Made by a program: the position numbers and the translations under genes
NCBI GenBank assembly: GCA_018971945.1
Contig: JAGWZH010000020.1
Coordinates: 1-39,529, forward strand
DNA: 39,529 nt
Direction: 5' to 3'
Source of the DNA: Alphaproteobacteria bacterium
GTDB taxonomy: Bacteria > Pseudomonadota > Alphaproteobacteria > Caulobacterales > Aquidulcibacteraceae
Notes under the pieces: generated by a model
Database searches by the model: none
Told to the model about the DNA's origin: nothing
The model's input: the letters and a program-made list of their open reading frames with translations, nothing else
Shown: in pieces, positions 2,126 through 39,529 of the stretch
How the letters are laid out: each line of letters opens with the position of its first letter
How positions within the stretch are numbered: position 1 is the first letter of the stretch

Positions 2126-3490
2126 TTATCGATCGATCCCGATAGCGCGCGCGACCTGTGCAATGCCATCCTTGATCCCAGCCATGACCTTTTGCCCGGC
2201 GGCCACGTCCAGACCCGCCGGTTTCAGCGCCAGTGTAACCCGGTCGTGGCGTTCCAGCGCGAGGTGTCTGCCGCTCGGCAAATCCAACTCGGCCCGCACG
2301 GTCCAGCGCTGTGTCCTTGACCCCAGGGACCGATAGGGTTTGCCGGCGGCGGCGCTCACGTCCTTGGCGGCGCGCGCGAACGCATCGGCGGTTTCCGGCC
2401 GTTTCCTCGCGTGTCCTGGCGTTTCCTCCCATCGCCCCCGATCGCCCTTAAAAACGCGATCAACCGACTTGTCGCCGCGTTCTTTGGCGAACCGGCTGCG
2501 GCGGATGTCGGCGTGCAGTTCAAGGGCGCGCAGGCGCGCCTGCCAATCGGGAGCAAAGGCGAAAACGCCACGTTTGACCTCCTCCGCCAGCCCTAGGCGC
2601 GAGAGTTCGACGAGGCGCGCCTTCATCGACGCGGCAAACCCTGGATCCGCCGCGCCCCTGCCGAGCGCGGCCATCGGCACCCTACCGGCAGGGTCCAGTC
2701 GCTCGGCGATCGCTTTGTCGAACTTGGTCAAACGAGGTGCGCGCACCTCGCGGTCCTGCGCCCGGCGCTCATCGTCGGGCGTGCGCGGCCCGAGCCGTTC
2801 GGTCGCCACGTCGCGGGCGATCTCGCGGAACCTGTGCTTGATGCAAGTGTCCGGCAGGTTGAGGGGGCCGCCCTCGGCGTCGCGCCCCCGAAGCACAAGG
2901 TGTGTGTGTGGATTGTCCGTGTCCCAGTGGTTGACCGCCACCCACTGCAAAGGTCGGCCCAGCTCCGCTTGCGCCCGGTTCATCACCTCCCGCGTGTATC
3001 CGGTCAGGTCGGTGATGGCCTGGCCGTTCTCAGGGGAGAGGATGACGCGGAAGTGGCGACCGTCTTCGCGTCCCCAATCGCGCAATCGTTCGCGCCCGTC
3101 CACGCTTGTCTGGGCAGCGTCGTAGAAGCCGTGCCGGCCCTCACGCGTCAAATAGTCGGCGTGCGGCTCAAGCTCTCCATCGCGCCGCGCGCCCTCGCGC
3201 GCGATATAGGCGCCATGCGCGGCCAAAGCCGCCGCGCCGCCGCCGCCATGTTTGAAGTAATGCACCTTGACGATCACCCGCTGGCGCGGATCTTTGGCAT
3301 AATCGGCCGGCATCGTTTTTGGCGCGCCTGATCGTACCCCGCCGCCCGGCATGCGCCGAATGCGGGCGTCAAGCCGGGCGCCCATCGGTGAAGGGGTCGC
3401 CGATCTGGCGCTGCGCAACCGGATCGACAGTTCGTCTTCATCCTTGGCGTCGCCATCGCGCAAACTGCGGTTGAAACTGCGCGCCGTCAT
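2126..3490 (-). CDS. VirD2-like conjugative relaxase with DUF3363-type C-terminal region
   Basis: A 454-residue relaxase starting at the ATG at 3490 (MTARSFNRSL). It would nick oriT and stay bound to the transferred strand through a tyrosine. Visible parts are a disordered basic N-terminus with a GGGVRSGAP stretch, the region VIVKVHYFKHGGGGAAALAAHGAYIARE, GREDGRHFRVILSPENG, and the metal-binding histidine motif NPHTHLVLRG (His195 and His197). The C-terminal part matches the DUF3363 region found in relaxases of trb-type mobile elements, though those proteins are usually 550-650 residues, so this one is short at the end. It is divergent from the coupling protein gene. The assignment is firm; whether the protein is fully functional is less sure. 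Confidence 0.85.
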   Translation of the reverse strand: MTARSFNRSLRDGDAKDEDELSIRLRSARSATPSPMGARLDARIRRMPGGGVRSGAPKTMPADYAKDPRQRVIVKVHYFKHGGGGAAALAAHGAYIAREGARRDGELEPHADYLTREGRHGFYDAAQTSVDGRERLRDWGREDGRHFRVILSPENGQAITDLTGYTREVMNRAQAELGRPLQWVAVNHWDTDNPHTHLVLRGRDAEGGPLNLPDTCIKHRFREIARDVATERLGPRTPDDERRAQDREVRAPRLTKFDKAIAERLDPAGRVPMAALGRGAADPGFAASMKARLVELSRLGLAEEVKRGVFAFAPDWQARLRALELHADIRRSRFAKERGDKSVDRVFKGDRGRWEETPGHARKRPETADAFARAAKDVSAAAGKPYRSLGSRTQRWTVRAELDLPSGRHLALERHDRVTLALKPAGLDVAAGQKVMAGIKDGIAQVARAIGIDR

Positions 3491-3515
3491 GGCTGTACCT
3501 CGCGCCACTGTGCGG

Positions 3516-3556
3516 GGTGCGCAAGCGCACCTCATTGGCAATGTGGAAATCCTAGC
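3516..3556 (+). other. Candidate origin of transfer (oriT)
   Basis: Between the divergent relaxase and coupling-protein genes there is an inverted repeat with 7-bp arms and a 2-bp spacer (GGTGCGC AA GCGCACC, 3516-3531). It is followed 17 bp later by ATCCTAGC (3549-3556). The RP4 oriT has the same layout: a 7-bp-arm, 2-bp-spacer repeat followed after about 14 bp by the nick sequence ATCCTG. The position beside the relaxase is also usual for oriT. This is inference from geometry and a 5 or 6-base core match. Confidence 0.4.
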
Positions 3557-3575
3557 CGCACCCCGCGCCAACGCC

Positions 3576-3782
3576 ATGGCGCACAACGACAAAACGAACG
3601 CCGCACCCTTTGTTATCTTGCCCTTCGTTCTTTTGTCATTGGGCGTTGGCTTGGCATGCACCGTGTCGTTTGGTTTGCGGCATAAGCGCTTGGCGCAAGC
3701 CTTGGCAAAAGCATCCCAGGCGTGGCGACGGACTATTGATCGGCCGGCGATGAACGAAGCTCACGCCGATGCTGCGGGTTGA
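3576..3782 (+). CDS. Small membrane protein upstream of the coupling protein gene
   Basis: A 68-residue frame starting at the ATG at 3576: MAHNDKTNAAPF, one clear transmembrane helix (PFVILPFVLLSLGVGLACTV, about residues 11-31), a basic stretch (RHKRLAQALAKASQAWRR), then a polar tail. Positive residues after the helix suggest a cytoplasmic C-terminus. It lies in the gap between relaxase and coupling protein on the coupling-protein strand. No good ribosome binding site was seen and the family is not recognised. A role in conjugation is a guess from position. Confidence 0.45.
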   Translation: MAHNDKTNAAPFVILPFVLLSLGVGLACTVSFGLRHKRLAQALAKASQAWRRTIDRPAMNEAHADAAG

Positions 3783-3860
3783 AACCAGCGGACAATGGGC
3801 TCTCGCCCCGCGATGCTCGCCTCACGTCAGCGCGCTCTGCGCCGACGGGGAGCAGCCTTC

Positions 3861-6146
3861 ATGTCTCACCCCTTGATCAATGGCCTTGGGATGGGCTTTG
3901 CCATCTTCACGCTGGGGTGCGGCCTCGGCACGCAAGCAGCGGCTCACATCTTCTTCTACCAAACAGCGCTCGGCGATCCCCTGCTGACGATCAGCGACGT
4001 CCCGATCTATTGGCCCTTTGAGCAGTTCGAGTGGCGGGCCAGGGCCCCCGAGACGATGCAGCATCTGTTCCGCTGGCCGATGATCTGCGCCTTTGGTGGG
4101 GCGGTGATCGGCGCGGCGACCTTCGTCCGCGTTATGATTGTCTCAGACCCCAAAGGCGCCAGCGCCTATGCCGCCCCAATCCGGAACTGGTTCAGCGACC
4201 AAACCGAATGGACCGACATCGCGCTCGCCGGTTCCGCCAGCCTGGCGACGATGCTGCTGGTCTGGTCGCTCGCCTGCTGGATCGTTGCAGGCCATTTCGA
4301 CTTTGCCGAGCGCCTTGGCGAACCGCTGATCGCCTTCGGCCCGATCCGGCTCTATTGGCCCCTCGACGTCTTCGCGTGGAAGACCGCCTTGGAGGAGAGC
4401 CATCCCTCGATCTTCGCCTTCGCCGATATCGTGATCTATGGCGGCGTTGGGGCCGGTGTGCTGGTCGCCTGGAAGATCGCCACCGGCGCGCCGCTTTTCA
4501 GCGAGTCGCCCCGCGGACGCCATATCGTCGATGGCGGATGGGCCAGCGTCGGCGATGCAAAGAACGCCGGGCTGCTCGGGCGCCCGCGGGGCATGGTGCT
4601 CGGCTTATGGCGCGGGGTCTTCAGCGCGCGCGCCGTCACATATGACGGCCCCGGCCACGCGCTCATTGTCGGCGCCACGCGCACTGGCAAGGGGCGTGGT
4701 GTCGTCGTCCCGACCATGCTGGCCTGGGAAGGCTCCATCGTCGCCCTCGACCCCAAGGGGGAACTGGCCGATGGCGACGCGCGCCTTGGCTTTCCAGGGA
4801 CGGCGGGGTTTCGGAAGACTGTCTCACACATTGTCCGTTTCGCCCCCACCCGATTGGACAGCGCAAAGTTCAATCCCTTGCTCGAGGTACGCCGCGGCGA
4901 CAATGAAGTGCGCGATGTGCAAAACATCGTCGACATTCTGACCGCGCCAACGCGCGAAACCAATGAGGCTCCGTTCTGGCGCACGGCGGCCTCCAGTCTT
5001 CTGGTCGGGGTGATCCTCGATGTGCTCCACACCGCGCCGGAGGTGCGGCAGAACTTCGCGGAGGTGCGCGCGCGGCTATCGCGGATGGAGGAAACCGCCG
5101 AAGCGATGCGCGGCGGTTGGCAAAGCCGCGATGGCCGGATCACGACACTGGTGACGCCGCTCCAGATCGCCCAGGAGGTCGCCAATTCTTACCTGGCGAT
5201 GGAAGAGCGCACGCAATCCAACGTGCGCGCCACCGCGGAGTCGTACCTCGCGATCTTCGCCGACAGGCTGGTCGCTGAAAACACCGCGACCTCCACATTC
5301 CGAATCGCTGATCTCGTCGGCTTGGATCATCCTGTTACGGTCTATCTCCAACCCCCGCCTTCCGACATGGACCGCCTGATGCCGCTGATGCGATTGATCA
5401 TCGGCCAGGTCGTCCGAGGGCTGACGGAGGACAAGGTTGCGGACTCGCTCGGTCGGCTGCGCCGCCATCGCACCTTGCTGCTGCTCGATGAATTTCCCCT
5501 GCTCGGCGCGCTGCCTGGCTTTGATCGCGCCATGGGTCTGATGGCGGGCTATGACATCCAGGCCATGCTGGTATGCCAGTCGATCAACTCGATCCGCGGC
5601 GTCTATGGTCGCGACAATGTCATCGTCGACAATTGCGATGTCATCACATCGTTCGGCGTCAATGATCCGGCCACCGCTGAAGTGATCTGCAAGCTCGGTG
5701 GCGATGTCATCGAGATGATCCCGCAAACCACGCGCCATCACAGTGGTGGCTTTGGTACACAGCAGAGAAGCTCCCACACCTGGCGCGATCAGCGCCGGCC
5801 CTTGATGCAGACTGGCGACCCGCTGCGCCTGCCGCCCGATCAGATGCTGATCTTCAAAGGCGGCTGCAAACCGATCCGCGCACGCAAACTGCAGGTCGAC
5901 CGGTTCGCATTGTTCGCCCAGCGCTTGGTCGCAGAAGCGGTGCCCACTGAAACGCTCAGCGAGGACCATGATTGGACGCCCGCTGGCGCAAGACCACGGT
6001 CGAGCGGGGAGGGCCCTGATGATGGCGGCCAAGACAGGCCGATGCGCAACATCACCCCCAAGCTCGCCCTTCTGCCGCCGCCCGACAAACCACCGCCAAG
6101 CCGTCGCCGTCCGACCAATGGCCCGGGCCGCAGCAAAGGAGTCTGA
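3861..6146 (+). CDS. traG: VirD4/TraG-type conjugative coupling protein (T4CP)
   Basis: A 761-residue ATPase that brings the relaxase-DNA complex to the type IV secretion channel. The ATG at 3861 is preferred over an upstream in-frame start because GGGGAG precedes it and the first membrane helix begins there. The N-terminal 210 residues carry about four transmembrane helices (for example FAIFTLGCGLGTQAA and LATMLLVWSLACWIV). The Walker A motif GATRTGKG is at residues 271-278 and the Walker B LLLLDEF has Asp543-Glu544. The length and the four-helix N-terminus match TraG/VirD4 of trb-type integrative elements. The next gene, for a CopG-like protein, begins 2 bp after the stop. Confidence 0.93.
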   Translation: MSHPLINGLGMGFAIFTLGCGLGTQAAAHIFFYQTALGDPLLTISDVPIYWPFEQFEWRARAPETMQHLFRWPMICAFGGAVIGAATFVRVMIVSDPKGASAYAAPIRNWFSDQTEWTDIALAGSASLATMLLVWSLACWIVAGHFDFAERLGEPLIAFGPIRLYWPLDVFAWKTALEESHPSIFAFADIVIYGGVGAGVLVAWKIATGAPLFSESPRGRHIVDGGWASVGDAKNAGLLGRPRGMVLGLWRGVFSARAVTYDGPGHALIVGATRTGKGRGVVVPTMLAWEGSIVALDPKGELADGDARLGFPGTAGFRKTVSHIVRFAPTRLDSAKFNPLLEVRRGDNEVRDVQNIVDILTAPTRETNEAPFWRTAASSLLVGVILDVLHTAPEVRQNFAEVRARLSRMEETAEAMRGGWQSRDGRITTLVTPLQIAQEVANSYLAMEERTQSNVRATAESYLAIFADRLVAENTATSTFRIADLVGLDHPVTVYLQPPPSDMDRLMPLMRLIIGQVVRGLTEDKVADSLGRLRRHRTLLLLDEFPLLGALPGFDRAMGLMAGYDIQAMLVCQSINSIRGVYGRDNVIVDNCDVITSFGVNDPATAEVICKLGGDVIEMIPQTTRHHSGGFGTQQRSSHTWRDQRRPLMQTGDPLRLPPDQMLIFKGGCKPIRARKLQVDRFALFAQRLVAEAVPTETLSEDHDWTPAGARPRSSGEGPDDGGQDRPMRNITPKLALLPPPDKPPPSRRRPTNGPGRSKGV

Positions 6147-8999: not shown

Positions 9000-9227
9000 C
9001 TAACTTCCCCCGTTGAACGCCGCATCAACCTTGTTGAGCAACGCGAGGCCTGCCTCGGCGTCGCCGCGGGCGGCCCGGGCGCGGAAGCGCACTTCGGTGT
9101 CGAATTCGGCGACGGCCCGGGTCGCGAGTTCCTCGATCAGCTTGTTCATGCTGACGCCGCGATGGGCGGCCAGCGCCTTCAGTCGCTCGTGCTGATCATC
9201 GGGCAGTCGGATCGTGAGAACGCTCAT
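9000..9227 (-). CDS. Ribbon-helix-helix antitoxin paired with a PIN toxin
   Basis: A 75-residue protein starting at the ATG at 9227. The RHH fold is clear: MSVLTIRLPDDQHERLKAL, AHRGVSMNKLIEELATRAVA. The C-terminal part (RFRARAARGDAEAGLALLNKVD) would wrap the toxin. Its ATG overlaps the stop of the PIN gene (ATGA), so the toxin gene comes first, the reverse of classical vapBC but common for COG1569 PIN toxins. It should bind the palindrome at 9664-9685 and hold the toxin inactive. Confidence 0.85.
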   Translation of the reverse strand: MSVLTIRLPDDQHERLKALAAHRGVSMNKLIEELATRAVAEFDTEVRFRARAARGDAEAGLALLNKVDAAFNGGS

Positions 9228-9655
9228 GAAGTTTGCCTCCATTTCAAAAAGTCGCCCGGCGTGAGGATGCGCACGCTGGGAAACAACAGTTCGGCGCGGC
9301 CGAAATCGCGCACATTAGCGGTGATGATGGCCTCCGCGCCCGCAGCCACCGCCAGTTCCAAGACATGATTGTCGGCCTCATCCGGCAAATTCGGCCGCCA
9401 CAAAAAGTGGATGCGCACCCAATCGCTGACGCTCAGCAGGGCCTCGAACAAAGTGGCGCGCTCGCCTTCATGCAAAGGGCATTGGCCCCACATCTGACCG
9501 CGAGCGAGCAGGCCCTCGTATTCGGCGAACAACGCGTTGCCAAACACCGGCTGGACATCGCCCTTCAACGCCAAGCGCAGCACGGCCCGCGCCCCGCCAT
9601 CGGCGCTCAGCAGCGCGGACACGAAAACATTTGTGTCGATGACGACGCGAACCAT
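9224..9655 (-). CDS. PIN-domain toxin (putative VapC-like RNase, COG1569 type)
   Basis: A 143-residue PIN-domain protein starting at the ATG at 9655. The acidic residues of the nuclease centre can be seen: Asp7 in VVIDTNVFVSALL, a Glu in LFAEYEGLLAR, and acidic residues in NLPDEADNHVLELA and TANVRDF. The layout matches the 'putative toxin, PIN family' group (TIGR00305). Such proteins cleave RNA when free of antitoxin. It overlaps the downstream antitoxin by 4 bp, with an operator palindrome 8 bp before its start. Confidence 0.87.
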   Translation of the reverse strand: MVRVVIDTNVFVSALLSADGGARAVLRLALKGDVQPVFGNALFAEYEGLLARGQMWGQCPLHEGERATLFEALLSVSDWVRIHFLWRPNLPDEADNHVLELAVAAGAEAIITANVRDFGRAELLFPSVRILTPGDFLKWRQTS

Positions 9656-9695: not shown

Positions 9696-9786
9696 TCAGA
9701 TGTCGACGTTTTCCGCAATCTCCAGGGCGTCGTCGACGTCGATGCCAAGATAGCGCACCGTCGAATCCATCTTCGTATGGCCAAGC
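9696..9786 (-). pseudogene. 3' fragment of the tyrosine integrase gene
   Basis: On the minus strand this encodes LGHTKMDSTVRYLGI, a few more residues (DVDDALEIAENVDI) and a stop at 9696-9698. It contains the catalytic LGHT box and the nucleophile Tyr (TVRYLGI) of a phage-type tyrosine recombinase. It completes the fragment at 12348-12952 exactly: the frames join through a shared AGC (plus strand 9784-9786 and 12348-12350). It has no start of its own. The split is caused by the 9787-12350 insertion, so the catalytic Tyr is separated from the rest of the protein by 2.5 kb. Confidence 0.88.
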
Positions 9787-9817
9787 GGGCATGCGCCATA
9801 AAGCTGCACTTTCTACG

Positions 9818-11875
9818 TCATTGAAAATCAAACAATGTTTGACTGGCGTCCACTGATTGCGGAGCTTTGCCGCTGTAGACTTCGCCAAACGCTGCGACGT
9901 CGTCGGCCTTCAAGACCCACGGAGCGCCGCGACAGACCTGTCTCGCGGGCAATCGGCCCTGAGAAATCATTCGGTGCACCGTCATCGGCGCGCATTTGAG
10001 GCGGCTTGCGGCCTCAAGGAGGGTGATTTCGCCGCGTTCGGCCAGTTCGCCATCGCGGAAGGGCGCGATTTTGTGGTGATTGCGGAAAGCGCGCACGCGA
10101 GGCTCGCTCCAGCTGTTGCCATGACCCGTGGAAATGCCGCAGCGATTGAGCAAACGCGCGATCTGTTTGTCTGGGATCACGCGCGACAGCTGTTCAATCT
10201 GCGCTGGCAGATCGACATCGTCCTTCCAGCGATAATGTCCTGACGCCGTGACCCGCGCGCTGTGCGTTAGGGCCGTGTGTGCGCCACCCTGCCAATGGAT
10301 AACGAAGCCGATTTGGCCGCCGTCGCGATGCACAATGATCTCGTGGATCGCCGCCCGCAGAATGCGCTTTTTTACCGACGCGCTCGCGGCCGGATGTTCC
10401 CATGCCAAAGCGACATCCTGGCCGAGCCGCGCAAGCGCCTCTTGTTCGCCAGGCCCCAGCGGTGGCGGGGTTCGCGCACGCAGCGCACTGAGTTCATCTT
10501 CAATCTTCAGCTTCGCCTCAAGCGCATTATTCCAGCGCCGCTCCAGTTCACCGGCGACAAGGCGATTGGCGGGATCAACGGCATCATATTGGCGACGCGC
10601 ATGGGCGACATCAAAGGCGGCTTTCTGCAGCGCCAAATCGAGTTGGCGCTGGGCTGCCGAGCTTTCTTCCATCAGAGCGCTCGTGGCTTCTGCGGCCGCC
10701 GCCACAGCCAAAGGCTTCAAGACCCGCAAGACTTCAGCTGATATCGCGCGATCGGCGCCCCAGCCCGCGATTGAGATGCACCGCGGCCCGCCGTGGTTGG
10801 TGCGTGCGCCATAGCATTGATAGCGGCCATTTTCCCGGCTGTAGAAGACGTGCAGCTTTCTCCCGCAATGCATGCAGCGCAGAAGGCCAGCCAAAAGGAG
10901 ATCGCCACGTCGCACTGCGCCTTTGACGGCGTCAGCGCTCATCTTGCTGGCGTTGTCAGCGATCACGCGCTGATTCCTTTCGAACTCATCCCAGCTGATG
11001 TAGCCCTCGTGCCGATCTTTGAGAAGGACGCCCCAGTCTTCCGGCGCCCGGCGCATGCCGCGGCGCACTTTCTTACGTCCATCCGCCACTGTGATTTCGC
11101 TACCGGTGCGTCCAAACGCATAGGCGCCAGCATAGATTGGATTGGTGAGAATGTTGTGGACGGTGTTGTAAGCAGGCGTTCGCCAGATGATCCCCTGTGC
11201 TTCCCGGTTTCGCGACTTCACCGGCAACTTGATGCCTTCCTCATTGAGCCAGATCAGCACTTGGCGCGCGCTTCGAAACGCGTCGAACTTGGAAAAGACA
11301 AGCGCCAACGCCTCTTGCACCCGTTGATCCGGATCCTTCTCGATCCGGTCCTTGTCAACTTTGACGTAGCCGGAGGCAACACGCAGGAAGAGTTCGCCGC
11401 GGCGGGCTTTCTGCATCAACGCTTCGTGCGAGCGCTGCCGAAACATGGAGAGTTCCAACTCGCTCATCGTCCCTTTCATGCCAAGAAGGAGCCGGTCATT
11501 TGCCAGACGCGGATCATAGACCCCGTCCTCATCGATAATGATCGCTCCAACAAGGCCGCAGAATTCTATAAGCGTATGCCAGTCGCGACCATTGCGGGCC
11601 AAGCGCGACGCTTCAATGGCAAAGACCGCGCCGACTTGACCTTCGCAGATAGCGGCTAACAAACGCTCGAATCCAGGCCGGCTCGCGCCGCCGCCGGAAC
11701 GCCCAAGGTCGTCGTCAATCACGTCAATTGCTGTCCAGCCCAATGCGCGCGCGCGATCAACAAGACCATATTGGCGTCGCTGGCTTTCAGTGTTGTGGAT
11801 CAGCTGGTCAGCGGTCGATTGGCGAATGTAGACGCAGGCGCGCCGCGCAAGATGCTCACTCAGAATCTTGCTCAT
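9818..11875 (-). CDS. Large serine recombinase
   Basis: A 685-residue site-specific recombinase of the resolvase/invertase superfamily. Domains in order: catalytic resolvase domain (residues 10-150) with the nucleophile Ser20 in YIRQS and GAVFAIEASRLARNGRDW; Recombinase domain (about 180-290); zinc ribbon (LRCMHCGRKL ... YQCYGARTNHGGPRC, four Cys); coiled-coil region (about 400-470); and a C-terminal MerR/excisionase-like HTH (TLLEAASRLKCAPMTVHRMI). The C-terminal HTH is an extra not present in phiC31-type integrases. It starts at the ATG at 11875, overlapping the previous stop as TAATG, so translation is coupled. It is presumably the enzyme that inserted the element. Confidence 0.92.
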   Translation of the reverse strand: MSKILSEHLARRACVYIRQSTADQLIHNTESQRRQYGLVDRARALGWTAIDVIDDDLGRSGGGASRPGFERLLAAICEGQVGAVFAIEASRLARNGRDWHTLIEFCGLVGAIIIDEDGVYDPRLANDRLLLGMKGTMSELELSMFRQRSHEALMQKARRGELFLRVASGYVKVDKDRIEKDPDQRVQEALALVFSKFDAFRSARQVLIWLNEEGIKLPVKSRNREAQGIIWRTPAYNTVHNILTNPIYAGAYAFGRTGSEITVADGRKKVRRGMRRAPEDWGVLLKDRHEGYISWDEFERNQRVIADNASKMSADAVKGAVRRGDLLLAGLLRCMHCGRKLHVFYSRENGRYQCYGARTNHGGPRCISIAGWGADRAISAEVLRVLKPLAVAAAAEATSALMEESSAAQRQLDLALQKAAFDVAHARRQYDAVDPANRLVAGELERRWNNALEAKLKIEDELSALRARTPPPLGPGEQEALARLGQDVALAWEHPAASASVKKRILRAAIHEIIVHRDGGQIGFVIHWQGGAHTALTHSARVTASGHYRWKDDVDLPAQIEQLSRVIPDKQIARLLNRCGISTGHGNSWSEPRVRAFRNHHKIAPFRDGELAERGEITLLEAASRLKCAPMTVHRMISQGRLPARQVCRGAPWVLKADDVAAFGEVYSGKAPQSVDASQTLFDFQ

Positions 11876-12258
11876 TAGCTGCCTCCCGGGTCTTCATCGC
11901 GCTTCCGATTTGTTCGAACATCGCCTGCAGCAGCCGTCGCAAATCGGCTTCGACTTGAGGCGTCAGGTCCGGCGCGGGCAGATCGACGTCGAACAGGTTT
12001 GGCGCATTGCGCTTTGGGGCTGGCCTCATTCGCAGGCTCCTGCGGCCCAGAATCGGACCGCATCAAGCCTAGAAGCAGGTCGATCTCTGCGCGCAGGATG
12101 CGCAAGGCCAAAATCGGGAATGTCGCCTGCGCGACGACAGCAAATCGATCGGCCGCCTCGTCAAACATCCAGGCGGGCAAACGCGCGCAGGTCCCGTCGG
12201 GCTGGCGAATAACGAAAATCTCAAGATTTCGGCAATAAAGACGCTCCACGATCTCCAC
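11875..12258 (-). CDS. DUF5372-like small protein of the serine-recombinase element
   Basis: The frame beginning at the GTG at 12258 gives 127 residues (MEIVERLYCRNLEIFVIRQ...). The frame is open upstream to the element's end, and the upstream codons read FYPFHPRCGETVEIVE, the start of the DUF5372 family (typical PFHPxxG), so the true start is upstream, probably at a non-ATG codon near 12300-12345; no ATG is available there. The C-terminal third is basic. DUF5372 genes commonly sit directly before serine recombinase genes; their role is unknown, possibly a directionality or accessory factor. The stop overlaps the recombinase ATG (TAATG). Confidence 0.7.
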   Translation of the reverse strand: MEIVERLYCRNLEIFVIRQPDGTCARLPAWMFDEAADRFAVVAQATFPILALRILRAEIDLLLGLMRSDSGPQEPANEASPKAQCAKPVRRRSARAGPDASSRSRFATAAAGDVRTNRKRDEDPGGS

Positions 12259-12347
12259 CGTTTCGCCGCATCGCGGATGAAACGGATAAAAGATCTGCGC
12301 TTCGTTCTTCGCGCCGCCCTGATTGCGGGCGGTATGTCGTTGTTCTG

Positions 12348-12952
12348 AGCAAAAGTTGGACGGCCCGAAGGTTCCCCGTCTTGCGGTAGATCAACGCGGC
12401 TTTCGTCCGCCGCATCGAGTGCGTGCCATACTCGTTTACTGGCAGGCCGACGCCGACGATCCATTCGCCAACAAGCCGCGCGTATTGGCGGGTGGTCAGA
12501 TGATTGTCGCGGCCATTGCGGCTTGGAAAGAGCCAATCATGCTGGTCGAGTTCGGCCTTGGCCACCCACGCCTTGATTGCTTCGCGGGACTGCTCGGTGA
12601 TTTCGAACTGTACCTTCGCGCCGGTCTTCTGCTGAATGACGGATGTCCGTGTTCGGATCACCCCGCCTTGCATGACGTCCGTCATTCGTAACTTCACCAG
12701 ATCACAGCCGCGCAGCTTGCTGTCGATGGCGAGGTTGAACAAGGCAAGATCGCGCAGCTTATTGGCGATGTGCAGTCGCACCCGGATCGCCCAAACTTCG
12801 CGCGGCTTAAGCGCGCGTTTCTGGCCAAGGATTTTGCCTTTGTTCCACCCTCTGAACGGCAGCGCGACGGCGGCGGCGAGCGCCGTTGCTGATGCTACCC
12901 CCGTTTCGAAGGGCAAGTCCGGCTGGATGTCTAGGTCGTGATCCATTGTCAT
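12348..12952 (-). pseudogene. 5' fragment of the tyrosine integrase gene
   Basis: The start is the ATG at 12952, with GGGAG about seven bases upstream. The fragment encodes about 201 residues of a short tyrosine recombinase: ALPFRGWNKGKILGQKRAL, LRDLALFNLAIDSKLRGCDL (catalytic Arg), KVQFEITEQSREAI, and the HxxR box THSMRRTKAALIYRKTGN ending in RAVQLLL. Past this point the frame runs into the inserted element (RTTTYRPQSG). The missing LGHT and Tyr boxes are at 9696-9786. Full length would be about 230 residues, usual for this integrase group. It probably once moved the island or a smaller unit in it. Confidence 0.88.
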
Positions 12953-38168: not shown

Positions 38169-39386
38169 TCAGGGCAAGCCAGCGACCAACGCGGCTACTT
38201 CCTGCTGCAGCCCTACAGCAAGCGCCTGCGCCGCGTCCGGCTGCGCCGGAATCACGACTGCGGCCATTGCCCCTAGCGCCACGATCGTCATCACCAGAAC
38301 GTCGCTTGCCCAGTCAGACAGGCCCAAAGGCCGCCGCCCCAAGTCTTCGCCTTCAAAAGTCGCCTCCAAGGCCGCATCCCTCCAGGCCGGCCTCAGCCCG
38401 CTGCCGAACGGGTCTCCAAGTCCATCCCAAGCGCTGGCATATTCCCGCTGCTGTGTGTCCTGCGCCGCTGCCTGCGCCATTCGCCTCGCCGCTATTTCCC
38501 GCTCCCGGTGCGCGCGCTCCCGTCGCAGGCCATCCTCTGTGTCGCCAAATCTGCTCATGTCGAAACGTGTGTCGCCAAATGGATCGGCGATTGACCGTTC
38601 ATTGCTTGTTGAAACGTCGCCGTCGGGCGGAGGGTCGCCAGGCGCTGGACGCGCTGTCGTGTGGGACCGGCTTTCCGAAGCTGCTGCGTTTCTTGCGCCC
38701 AAGCCCATGCGCTCGCCAGCGTCTGCGCTCTTGCGCCCCCCCTCGCGCTGCTCGGCGCGCTCCCCTGAGCCCGGCGCATGCTCTGCTGGCCCCAGGGCCC
38801 TCAGCCTTGGATCTTGATGGCGTCGCGTGTGTTCGGCTGCGGCAGCCGCTTCCTGCGCCCTCTGCTGCGCGGGTTCTGGCCGGTTGAGATCAAGCCTATC
38901 TTGGTCCCCGCGCGTCTGCCCCCTCTCGCCTCCCAAAGCCTCGGCGTTGATTGGGCGTGCAGCGGATGAGGGCGGCTCGGGCTCTGGAGCGCGCATGTCC
39001 TGCTTCAAGATTTCGCCCGCTGACCGCGCCCGCGCGATCCTCATCACATGGGCCCGGATCGCCTGCAATGCGATATCCGACCCCTCTCCGTTCCACTCGC
39101 ACAAATCATGCAGCGCAAGCTTGTTCAGCGGCGCTTGCAGATGACAGAAACCCACAAAAACCGGCACCAGCTTACCCTGCGCCTCCGCGGCGAGCGCCCG
39201 CTCCATCAAAAGCGTCGATTTCACCGCAGCGCTTGAGAACAGAGCCACCGCCGCATCAGAATTGTCGACATCCTCGTAGGCGCTGGCGCTGGCGCACATG
39301 GATACCCCATGCGCCTCCAACGCCCGAGCCAGCCGATCGGCTATCGCCCGGTCCTCCCGAACAAACAAGAGCGACGCTTCCGCCAT
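38169..39386 (-). CDS. TIR-domain protein with C-terminal membrane anchor
   Basis: A 405-residue protein starting at the ATG at 39386 (MAEASLLF). Residues 1-125 form a TIR-like domain: ASLLFVREDRAIADRLARAL, DAAVALFSSAAVKSTLLMERAL (with a Glu in the catalytic position of NADase TIRs), GKLVPVFVGFCHLQAPLNKL. Residues 135-300 are a disordered, Ala/Arg/Glu-rich linker. A segment repeats Phe-Gly-Asp (DPFGDTRFDMSRFGDTEDG). The C-terminus has one membrane helix (VLVMTIVALGAMAAVVIPA). Both a signalling role and a defence role are possible; NADase activity is not shown. Confidence 0.72.
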   Translation of the reverse strand: MAEASLLFVREDRAIADRLARALEAHGVSMCASASAYEDVDNSDAAVALFSSAAVKSTLLMERALAAEAQGKLVPVFVGFCHLQAPLNKLALHDLCEWNGEGSDIALQAIRAHVMRIARARSAGEILKQDMRAPEPEPPSSAARPINAEALGGERGQTRGDQDRLDLNRPEPAQQRAQEAAAAAEHTRRHQDPRLRALGPAEHAPGSGERAEQREGGRKSADAGERMGLGARNAAASESRSHTTARPAPGDPPPDGDVSTSNERSIADPFGDTRFDMSRFGDTEDGLRRERAHREREIAARRMAQAAAQDTQQREYASAWDGLGDPFGSGLRPAWRDAALEATFEGEDLGRRPLGLSDWASDVLVMTIVALGAMAAVVIPAQPDAAQALAVGLQQEVAALVAGLP

Positions 39387-39529
39387 GTCTTCGCCGCCAC
39401 AGCCTTTCAGCCTGTCGCTGCAACCCAAGCCCAGTCGTTTTTGTTAGCACGCCATTAAGGCAGACGCGAGGGCGGCTTGCGTCACAAATCAGAACAGGCG
39501 AGGCTTCACACTGATGAATAAGCCCGTGG

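Follow-up and report, generated by a model that had tools for sequence, protein, structure and literature searches.

Large serine recombinases (LSRs) of the phiC31, Bxb1, TP901-1 and SPbeta YokA type share a Resolvase domain, a Recombinase domain and a zinc ribbon, and carry out the general serine-integrase reaction with a 2-bp core and symmetric attP arms. The same features are found in an element that interrupts a tyrosine-recombinase gene in a 39,529-nucleotide stretch from an alphaproteobacterium of the Aquidulcibacteraceae (assembly GCA_018971945.1, contig JAGWZH010000020.1, forward strand; hereafter the window), and the LSR of this element matches six solved chains, weakly, including YokA, TP901-1 Int and TnpX. 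The window element differs from the known LSR systems in being only about 2.56 kb long with two small open reading frames (ORFs), in appearing to move like an insertion sequence, and in that elements of its type target motifs of the enzymes of other mobile elements. No description of an LSR element that targets integrase, IstB or IS110 motifs was found among the matches listed in the open-licence literature. This is a known kind of enzyme and element with a new class of target.

Helper-embedded phage-inducible chromosomal islands (PICIs) use tyrosine integrases. An integrase clade has been described in which every sub-clade keeps to a single site within the genes of other mobile elements, the target is disrupted with no replacement sequence, and one PICI is noted inside an IS110 transposase gene (PMC10111431). 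The clade-fixed sites in mobile-element genes and the disruption of the target are shared with the window-type elements; however, helper-embedded PICIs are full satellites and reside in prophage late genes, not in recombination enzymes. Inteins home into conserved or dispensable coding sites and are removed by protein splicing. Mobile group II introns and inteins resemble the present elements in that they home into coding sites, dispensable or conserved, within the genes of mobile elements, but their RNA or protein splicing can restore the product, whereas here a DNA recombinase breaks the gene. The group II intron RmInt1 lies in the transposase gene of ISRm2011-2, and is reported to limit the spread of this insertion sequence (PMC4238363).

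The best NCBIfam match of the window LSR is XisF, the excision recombinase of the fdxN element (NF041201; 7.2e-26). XisF is the LSR of a gene-interrupting element, but the window LSR scores 91.1 bits against a cut-off of 375 and hence is not XisF. In excerpts of Durrant et al., diverse LSRs all use one conserved coding site in prolyl isomerase, and the targets named there are competence genes, Mg-chelatase/ATP-dependent protease and prolyl isomerase, not integrases or transposases (PMC10083194). The same excerpts give DUF4368 in 63% of the LSRs of a multi-targeting, TndX-like clade (PMC10083194), whereas the window LSR has no DUF4368 match and the target of its relatives is fixed by clade.

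The interrupted gene is encoded on the minus strand and is split by the LSR element, with the crossover at bases 1 and 2 of the Leu codon in its Leu-Gly-His (LGH) box. The 5' part (12348..12952) starts at 12952, includes HSMRR, breaks off after the ...RAVQLL codons at the LGH Leu codon, and its ORF matches Pfam Phage_integrase (1.7e-16); the core CT occupies 12348-12349. The 3' part (9696..9785), which runs from LGH through the Tyr to a stop ending at 9696, restarts at 9785 with LGHTKMDSTVRY..., and here the core CT lies at 9784-9785. Joined at the core, the halves read ...RKTGNLRAVQLL up to the junction and LGHTKMDSTVRYLGIDVDDALEIAENVDI from there to the stop with the frame intact, and the joined protein matches Phage_integrase at 4.2e-22. 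Contig C129 of this genome carries an uninterrupted relative (L084) that aligns with the joined protein through the junction without a gap (81/94 residues identical on the left and 29/29 on the right), and therefore the two fragments belong to one gene. Farther upstream, the C129 relative carries a single in-frame TAG, and it may be inactive as well. PF00589 (Phage_integrase) was matched in 13 of 13 aligned proteins (12 joined proteins and the C129 relative), in which the His and Arg of HxxR and the LGH box are invariant and the Tyr is conserved in at least 90%. The alternative of two unrelated integrase fragments is ruled out by the alignment to uninterrupted relatives, with the exception of L015, to which we return below. 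The LGH His and the Tyr are catalytic residues of tyrosine recombinases; the insertion cuts both off from the integrase frame, and loss of integrase activity is therefore expected. A preliminary description of the window, made from its letters alone, had given these coordinates and the frame-restoring join correctly. Its shared AGC holds as the plus-strand view of GCT, but the sequence common to the relatives is CT only.

Close homologues of the LSR were collected as 59 loci from a genome collection, with plasmids and sampled genomes in addition. These 59 loci and the window, 60 in all, were scanned blind for the motif. In 12 of them a GH...T..Y box lies exactly 37-38 nt past the LSR match, and these 12 all fall in one LSR clade, hereafter the LGH clade. 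The other 48 have no such box in the scanned stretch (up to 900 nt) except for misplaced ones in L055 (289 nt) and L056 (701 nt); among the 48 are three clade members without a readable right flank (L007, L023 and L054) and about 12 more with short flanks or partial LSRs. Because the same junction recurs in relatives, all in one LSR clade, chance is excluded as its source. All 18 readable insertions of the clade, including two plasmid loci, the one-sided cases and a second copy in the window genome (C120), are at the LGH of a tyrosine recombinase. Thirteen of them (including the window, L008 and L015) are readable on both sides, and each restores a continuous tyrosine-recombinase frame at LGH; the five one-sided cases, three read from the left only (L007, L023, L054) and two from the right only (L029, C120), are interrupted at the same point. 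In every LGH-clade insertion the LSR and the target integrase gene have the same orientation. The comparison of homologue flanks that the preliminary description had proposed thus bore it out, the flanks of every readable clade member being tyrosine-recombinase halves that meet at LGH; fragments of different integrases, which the description had named as a refuting outcome, were found in L015 alone. The LSR gene of L006 has an internal stop codon, a decaying copy that is still at LGH.

The elements L062 and L063, on two Bradyrhizobium plasmids, are 97.3% identical, and their flanks are only 49.0% (600 bp left) and 46.9% (300 bp right) identical. In the window genome itself, the second copy on C120 has 122/122 identical element-end bases and 64/90 identical target bases. 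The targets include a short integrase group (the window, L035 and L062), of which an uninterrupted relative is found in Asticcacaulis, and a second integrase group, located beside an IS91-family transposase in Bradyrhizobium sp. CB82. The targets thus come from at least two integrase families, and the targeting is therefore recurrent and does not go back to one old insertion.

The inserted element lies between the two CT cores at 9786..12347 (minus strand, 2,562 bp by the junction coordinates); the core-to-core length is 2,546-2,562 bp in the other LGH-clade members readable on both sides, and about 2,626 bp in L035. Its LSR (9818..11875, minus strand, 685 aa) has the Resolvase (1.1e-24), Recombinase (4.2e-19) and zinc-ribbon (7.1e-7) domains of Pfam, all above cut-off, followed by a C-terminal HTH_17/excisionase-like domain (residues ~617-663). 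The HTH_17 match is above its own cut-off, and the same helix-turn-helix (HTH) also matches an excisionase model at 1.6e-5, under the cut-off of that model. Y-x-R-Q-S is the motif that holds the catalytic Ser of LSRs; the window enzyme has YIRQS at this site, and S20 is invariant in 10 aligned clade members. Its identity to nine aligned clade relatives is 61-66%, and 91% for L015. Two accessory ORFs are found on the minus strand upstream of the LSR. The first (11875..12294), in the frame IFYPFHPRCGETVEIV... with an uncertain start codon and a stop that overlaps the LSR start by 1 base, is DUF5372-like, its Pfam match (2e-4, 21.7 bits) being below the gathering cut-off of 25. The second (11856..12029, 57 aa in the junction-coordinate analysis) overlaps the LSR start and had no match in a Pfam search. 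ORFs similar in place and wording to both are present in the elements inspected from the LGH clade and from the IstB and IS110 clades described below.

At the left end of the window element (12328..12347, minus strand) the core is followed by 11 nt, and CATACCGCC comes next as one of the two arms of the attP dyad, at a spacing that is fixed in the three target clades, in which this sequence is CATAnTGC or a near variant. At the right end (9786..9804, minus strand) the end comparison gives GCTTTATG, GCATTATG in most relatives, as the other arm, followed by 11 nt and the core, and the three clades share an ATTATG-like sequence at this position. In ten elements the arms agree about the core at 10-15 of 25 positions, largely through CATAnTGC, a count made with no shuffle test; as far as can be judged from sequence, this dyad gives the element ends the look of an LSR attP. 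The left and right cores are equal in 12/13 LGH-clade, 14/20 IstB-clade and 6/6 IS110-clade insertions with a findable left end, a count that left out L021 (poor left-end match) and L060 (its match starts at residue 120, and the stretch searched lies inside the gene). With one duplicate dropped, the IstB agreement is 13/19, against a shuffled mean of 4.69, and was reached in 1 of 100,000 shuffles. The LGH and IstB half-sites look alike beside the core, as seen by inspection without a test.

The relationship among the target clades was examined in an LSR tree of 85 rows (73 different), from which LSRs shorter than 400 aa were left out. Three rows are duplicates with identical LSRs and the same flank or place (L090 of L003, L091 of L007 and L103 of L065). 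The LGH clade (18 rows) and an IS110 clade (8 rows) each have an SH-aLRT support of 100, and both are nested in a 48-row set (support 89). In the remaining 22 rows the interrupted gene is that of the IS21 ATPase, IstB, which is hit in its P-loop region. All 48 rows of this set, three of them duplicates and L025 assigned by eye, are in genes for mobile-element enzymes. The IstB-clade insertions (L011-L014, L016-L019, L024, L064, L065, L093, L099-L108, L109 and others) are antisense to the gene, at the codons of the P-loop (GTGKTH), the Walker A motif. The P-loop motif is on the left side of the element in all of 21 IstB-clade insertions, and on each side 13 of the 16 flanks scanned match Pfam IstB_IS21. 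In the IS110 group, Transposase_20 was matched in seven of eight right flanks, the eighth (L021) having been scanned in the wrong frame; the left flanks give no count because several picks were in wrong frames.

The strongest single case comes from genome G552, in which five elements (L092, L095-L098), identical to three decimals over the whole length, interrupt five different IS110 transposases at the same motif, with a flank identity of 47-63%. Judged by these sequences, recent movement has occurred in the IS110 sister clade. Seven loci outside the tree agree with the nearest clade, namely L054 (LGH), L049, L055 and L056 (IS110), and L057, L104 and L109 (IstB); L054, L049, L055, L056 and L057, which have LSRs below the 400-aa limit of the tree, were read from the left flank, and L036 and L050, likewise below the limit, are without a readable end. 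An origin of LGH and IS110 targeting from IstB targeting would be consistent with the tree, which was made by a quick search with a midpoint root and does not show the direction of descent. The preliminary description had proposed that a recombinase preying on integrases may be a general strategy. One clade is indeed integrase-specific, but the sister clades target IstB and IS110 enzymes, and the wider trait is therefore a tropism for mobile-element enzymes.

More distant clades are mixed. Their readable targets, by eye, are mostly IS66 (TnpC), IstA or other DDE transposases, interrupted at conserved motifs (L022, L026-L034, L042, L052, L066, L078; L037-L048, L051, L059; part of these are readable). 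Pfam matches on 17 distant-clade members gave IS66 in 5, IS66_C in 3 and rve in 5, counts that may overlap. By eye, the gene that L071 interrupts seems IstB-like, with the insertion at a different motif. L031 and L072 do not have the look of insertions into transposases, which counts against a family-wide claim, and with the distant clades mixed the widest form of the claim, in which the whole family targets mobile-element enzymes, was not accepted. No target was called in L045, L058, L067, L068-L070, L073-L077, L079-L081, L094, L112-L114, L115 and L116, and the flanks of L033, L039, L041 and L053 were too short for a call. A phage origin of the element was rejected, since 79 phage records matched but not one of the matches extends over 80% of the LSR. 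The scan of viral_contigs gave two relatives, L109, whose flanks both place it in an IstB P-loop, and the remote L110.

We consider it very probable, from the comparison of sequences, that the small insertion element in the window is mobilized by the LSR it encodes, and that its attB is the stretch of tyrosine-recombinase DNA that codes for the IQxLL-LGH box. The exact junctions, the common core, the fixed orientation and the recurrence across integrase families are apparent at the level of sequence; the reaction chemistry, the loss of integrase function and its possible restoration on excision we infer. By the standard serine-integrase reaction, the LSR would synapse the attP of the circular element with LGH-encoding DNA and make staggered cuts at the 2-bp core CT, with which the Leu codon begins; the element would then be inserted in a fixed orientation. 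The integrase is left split, with its first catalytic residues on one side and the LGH His and the Tyr on the other. Such a target may suit the element in that the DNA of the motif is strongly conserved, is present in many copies on many replicons and is dispensable to the cell. In the related clades, the same attP arms go with other mobile-element motifs, the IstB P-loop and IS110.

Some observations weigh against this interpretation. The cores are unequal in six of 20 IstB-clade insertions, including two of the five copies in genome G644, and therefore a strict 2-bp core match is not universal; these six disagreements may be mismatched integrations or exchanges between copies. The common core of the LGH clade is CT (TT at the right end of L029 and at the left end of L015), and where the core is so nearly constant a match between left and right proves little alone. 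In L015, the two halves of the target come from different integrases, the left half matching a relative in the first integrase group (102/163) and the right half not doing so (6/15), and the cores are TT and CT, which we read as recombination between two copies or a join in the assembly of a metagenome-assembled genome. The sample is not a census, having been seeded by peptide patterns of the window LSR and by sampled genomes, and three LSR hits were read from the 552 plasmid records with a match. A circle junction, or a filled and empty pair of one strain, was not in hand, and reads were not searched for them. The two G644 copies, L101 and L107, have the left core GT and the right core GG at one IstB-type target, the other three copies being GT/GT; integration with a mismatched core is possible in these two.

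On a broader scale, we favor, with moderate confidence, the view that a single lineage of LSR elements has specialized on enzymes that belong to other mobile DNA, and that each of its sub-clades is locked to the DNA of one conserved motif (LGH, the IstB P-loop or IS110, with IS66 and DDE transposases in distant clades). New sub-clades would arise by a switch of the target half-site with the attP arms kept, and the result would be a guild of hyperparasites that break the movement machinery of their neighbors. A different account, which we regard as unlikely, is regulated gene integrity, in which the insertion is a reversible switch that keeps the integrase off until signaled excision restores it, so that the host element moves when this suits its passenger. 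The precision of the insertion and the restoration of the frame on joining fit such a switch, the excisionase-like HTH at the C-terminus of the LSR or the two accessory ORFs could supply a directionality factor, and a precedent is offered by the helper-embedded PICIs in prophage late genes, for which such regulation has been proposed (PMC10111431). However, the clade has decayed members, the LSR of L006 being interrupted by a stop and those of L023 and L054 truncated, and the interrupted enzymes come from elements of many kinds, with no single host relationship evident.

More doubtful still is the idea of an anti-mobile-element weapon, according to which a cell or plasmid would be selected to keep an element that disables competing integrases and transposases. 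The restriction of the complete LGH, IstB and IS110 set of tree rows to mobile-element enzyme genes is in its favor, but elements that merely colonize conserved, dispensable sites produce this pattern too, with no benefit to the host. Relatives of the LSR (E <=1e-50) are moreover uncommon, being carried by 11 of 385 genomes sampled from the class, a count that includes the window genome, and no defense family was matched except for a weak HTH match to mad1 (6.8e-6). That one old insertion was inherited with its integrase, with no repeated targeting, has next to no probability: the similar flanks of L004 and L005 (97% and 94%) indicate that some pairs are duplicates or close paralogues, but this reading is ruled out by the nearly identical L062 and L063 in unrelated integrases and by the second, different integrase hit in the window's own genome, and the five identical elements in five IS110 genes of the sister clade also speak against it.

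The surroundings of the split integrase in the window were also inspected. Beside it, at 2129-6143, are a DUF3363 protein and a type IV coupling protein (T4SS-DNA_transf), which suggests a conjugative element or a remnant of one. A ribbon-helix-helix and PIN-domain pair at 9003-9655, likely a toxin-antitoxin module, adjoins the 3' fragment of the integrase, and a TIR-domain protein is encoded at the end of the window (38172-39428).

These elements present serine recombinases fixed on the DNA that encodes catalytic motifs of competing mobile elements, with attachment sites that can be read straight from genomes. The target clades, in which the attP arms are the same and the half-sites are different, form a natural series for the change of LSR specificity, which is relevant to the use of LSRs as tools. 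The limiting effect that such insertions may have on the spread of integrases and insertion sequences thereby becomes testable.

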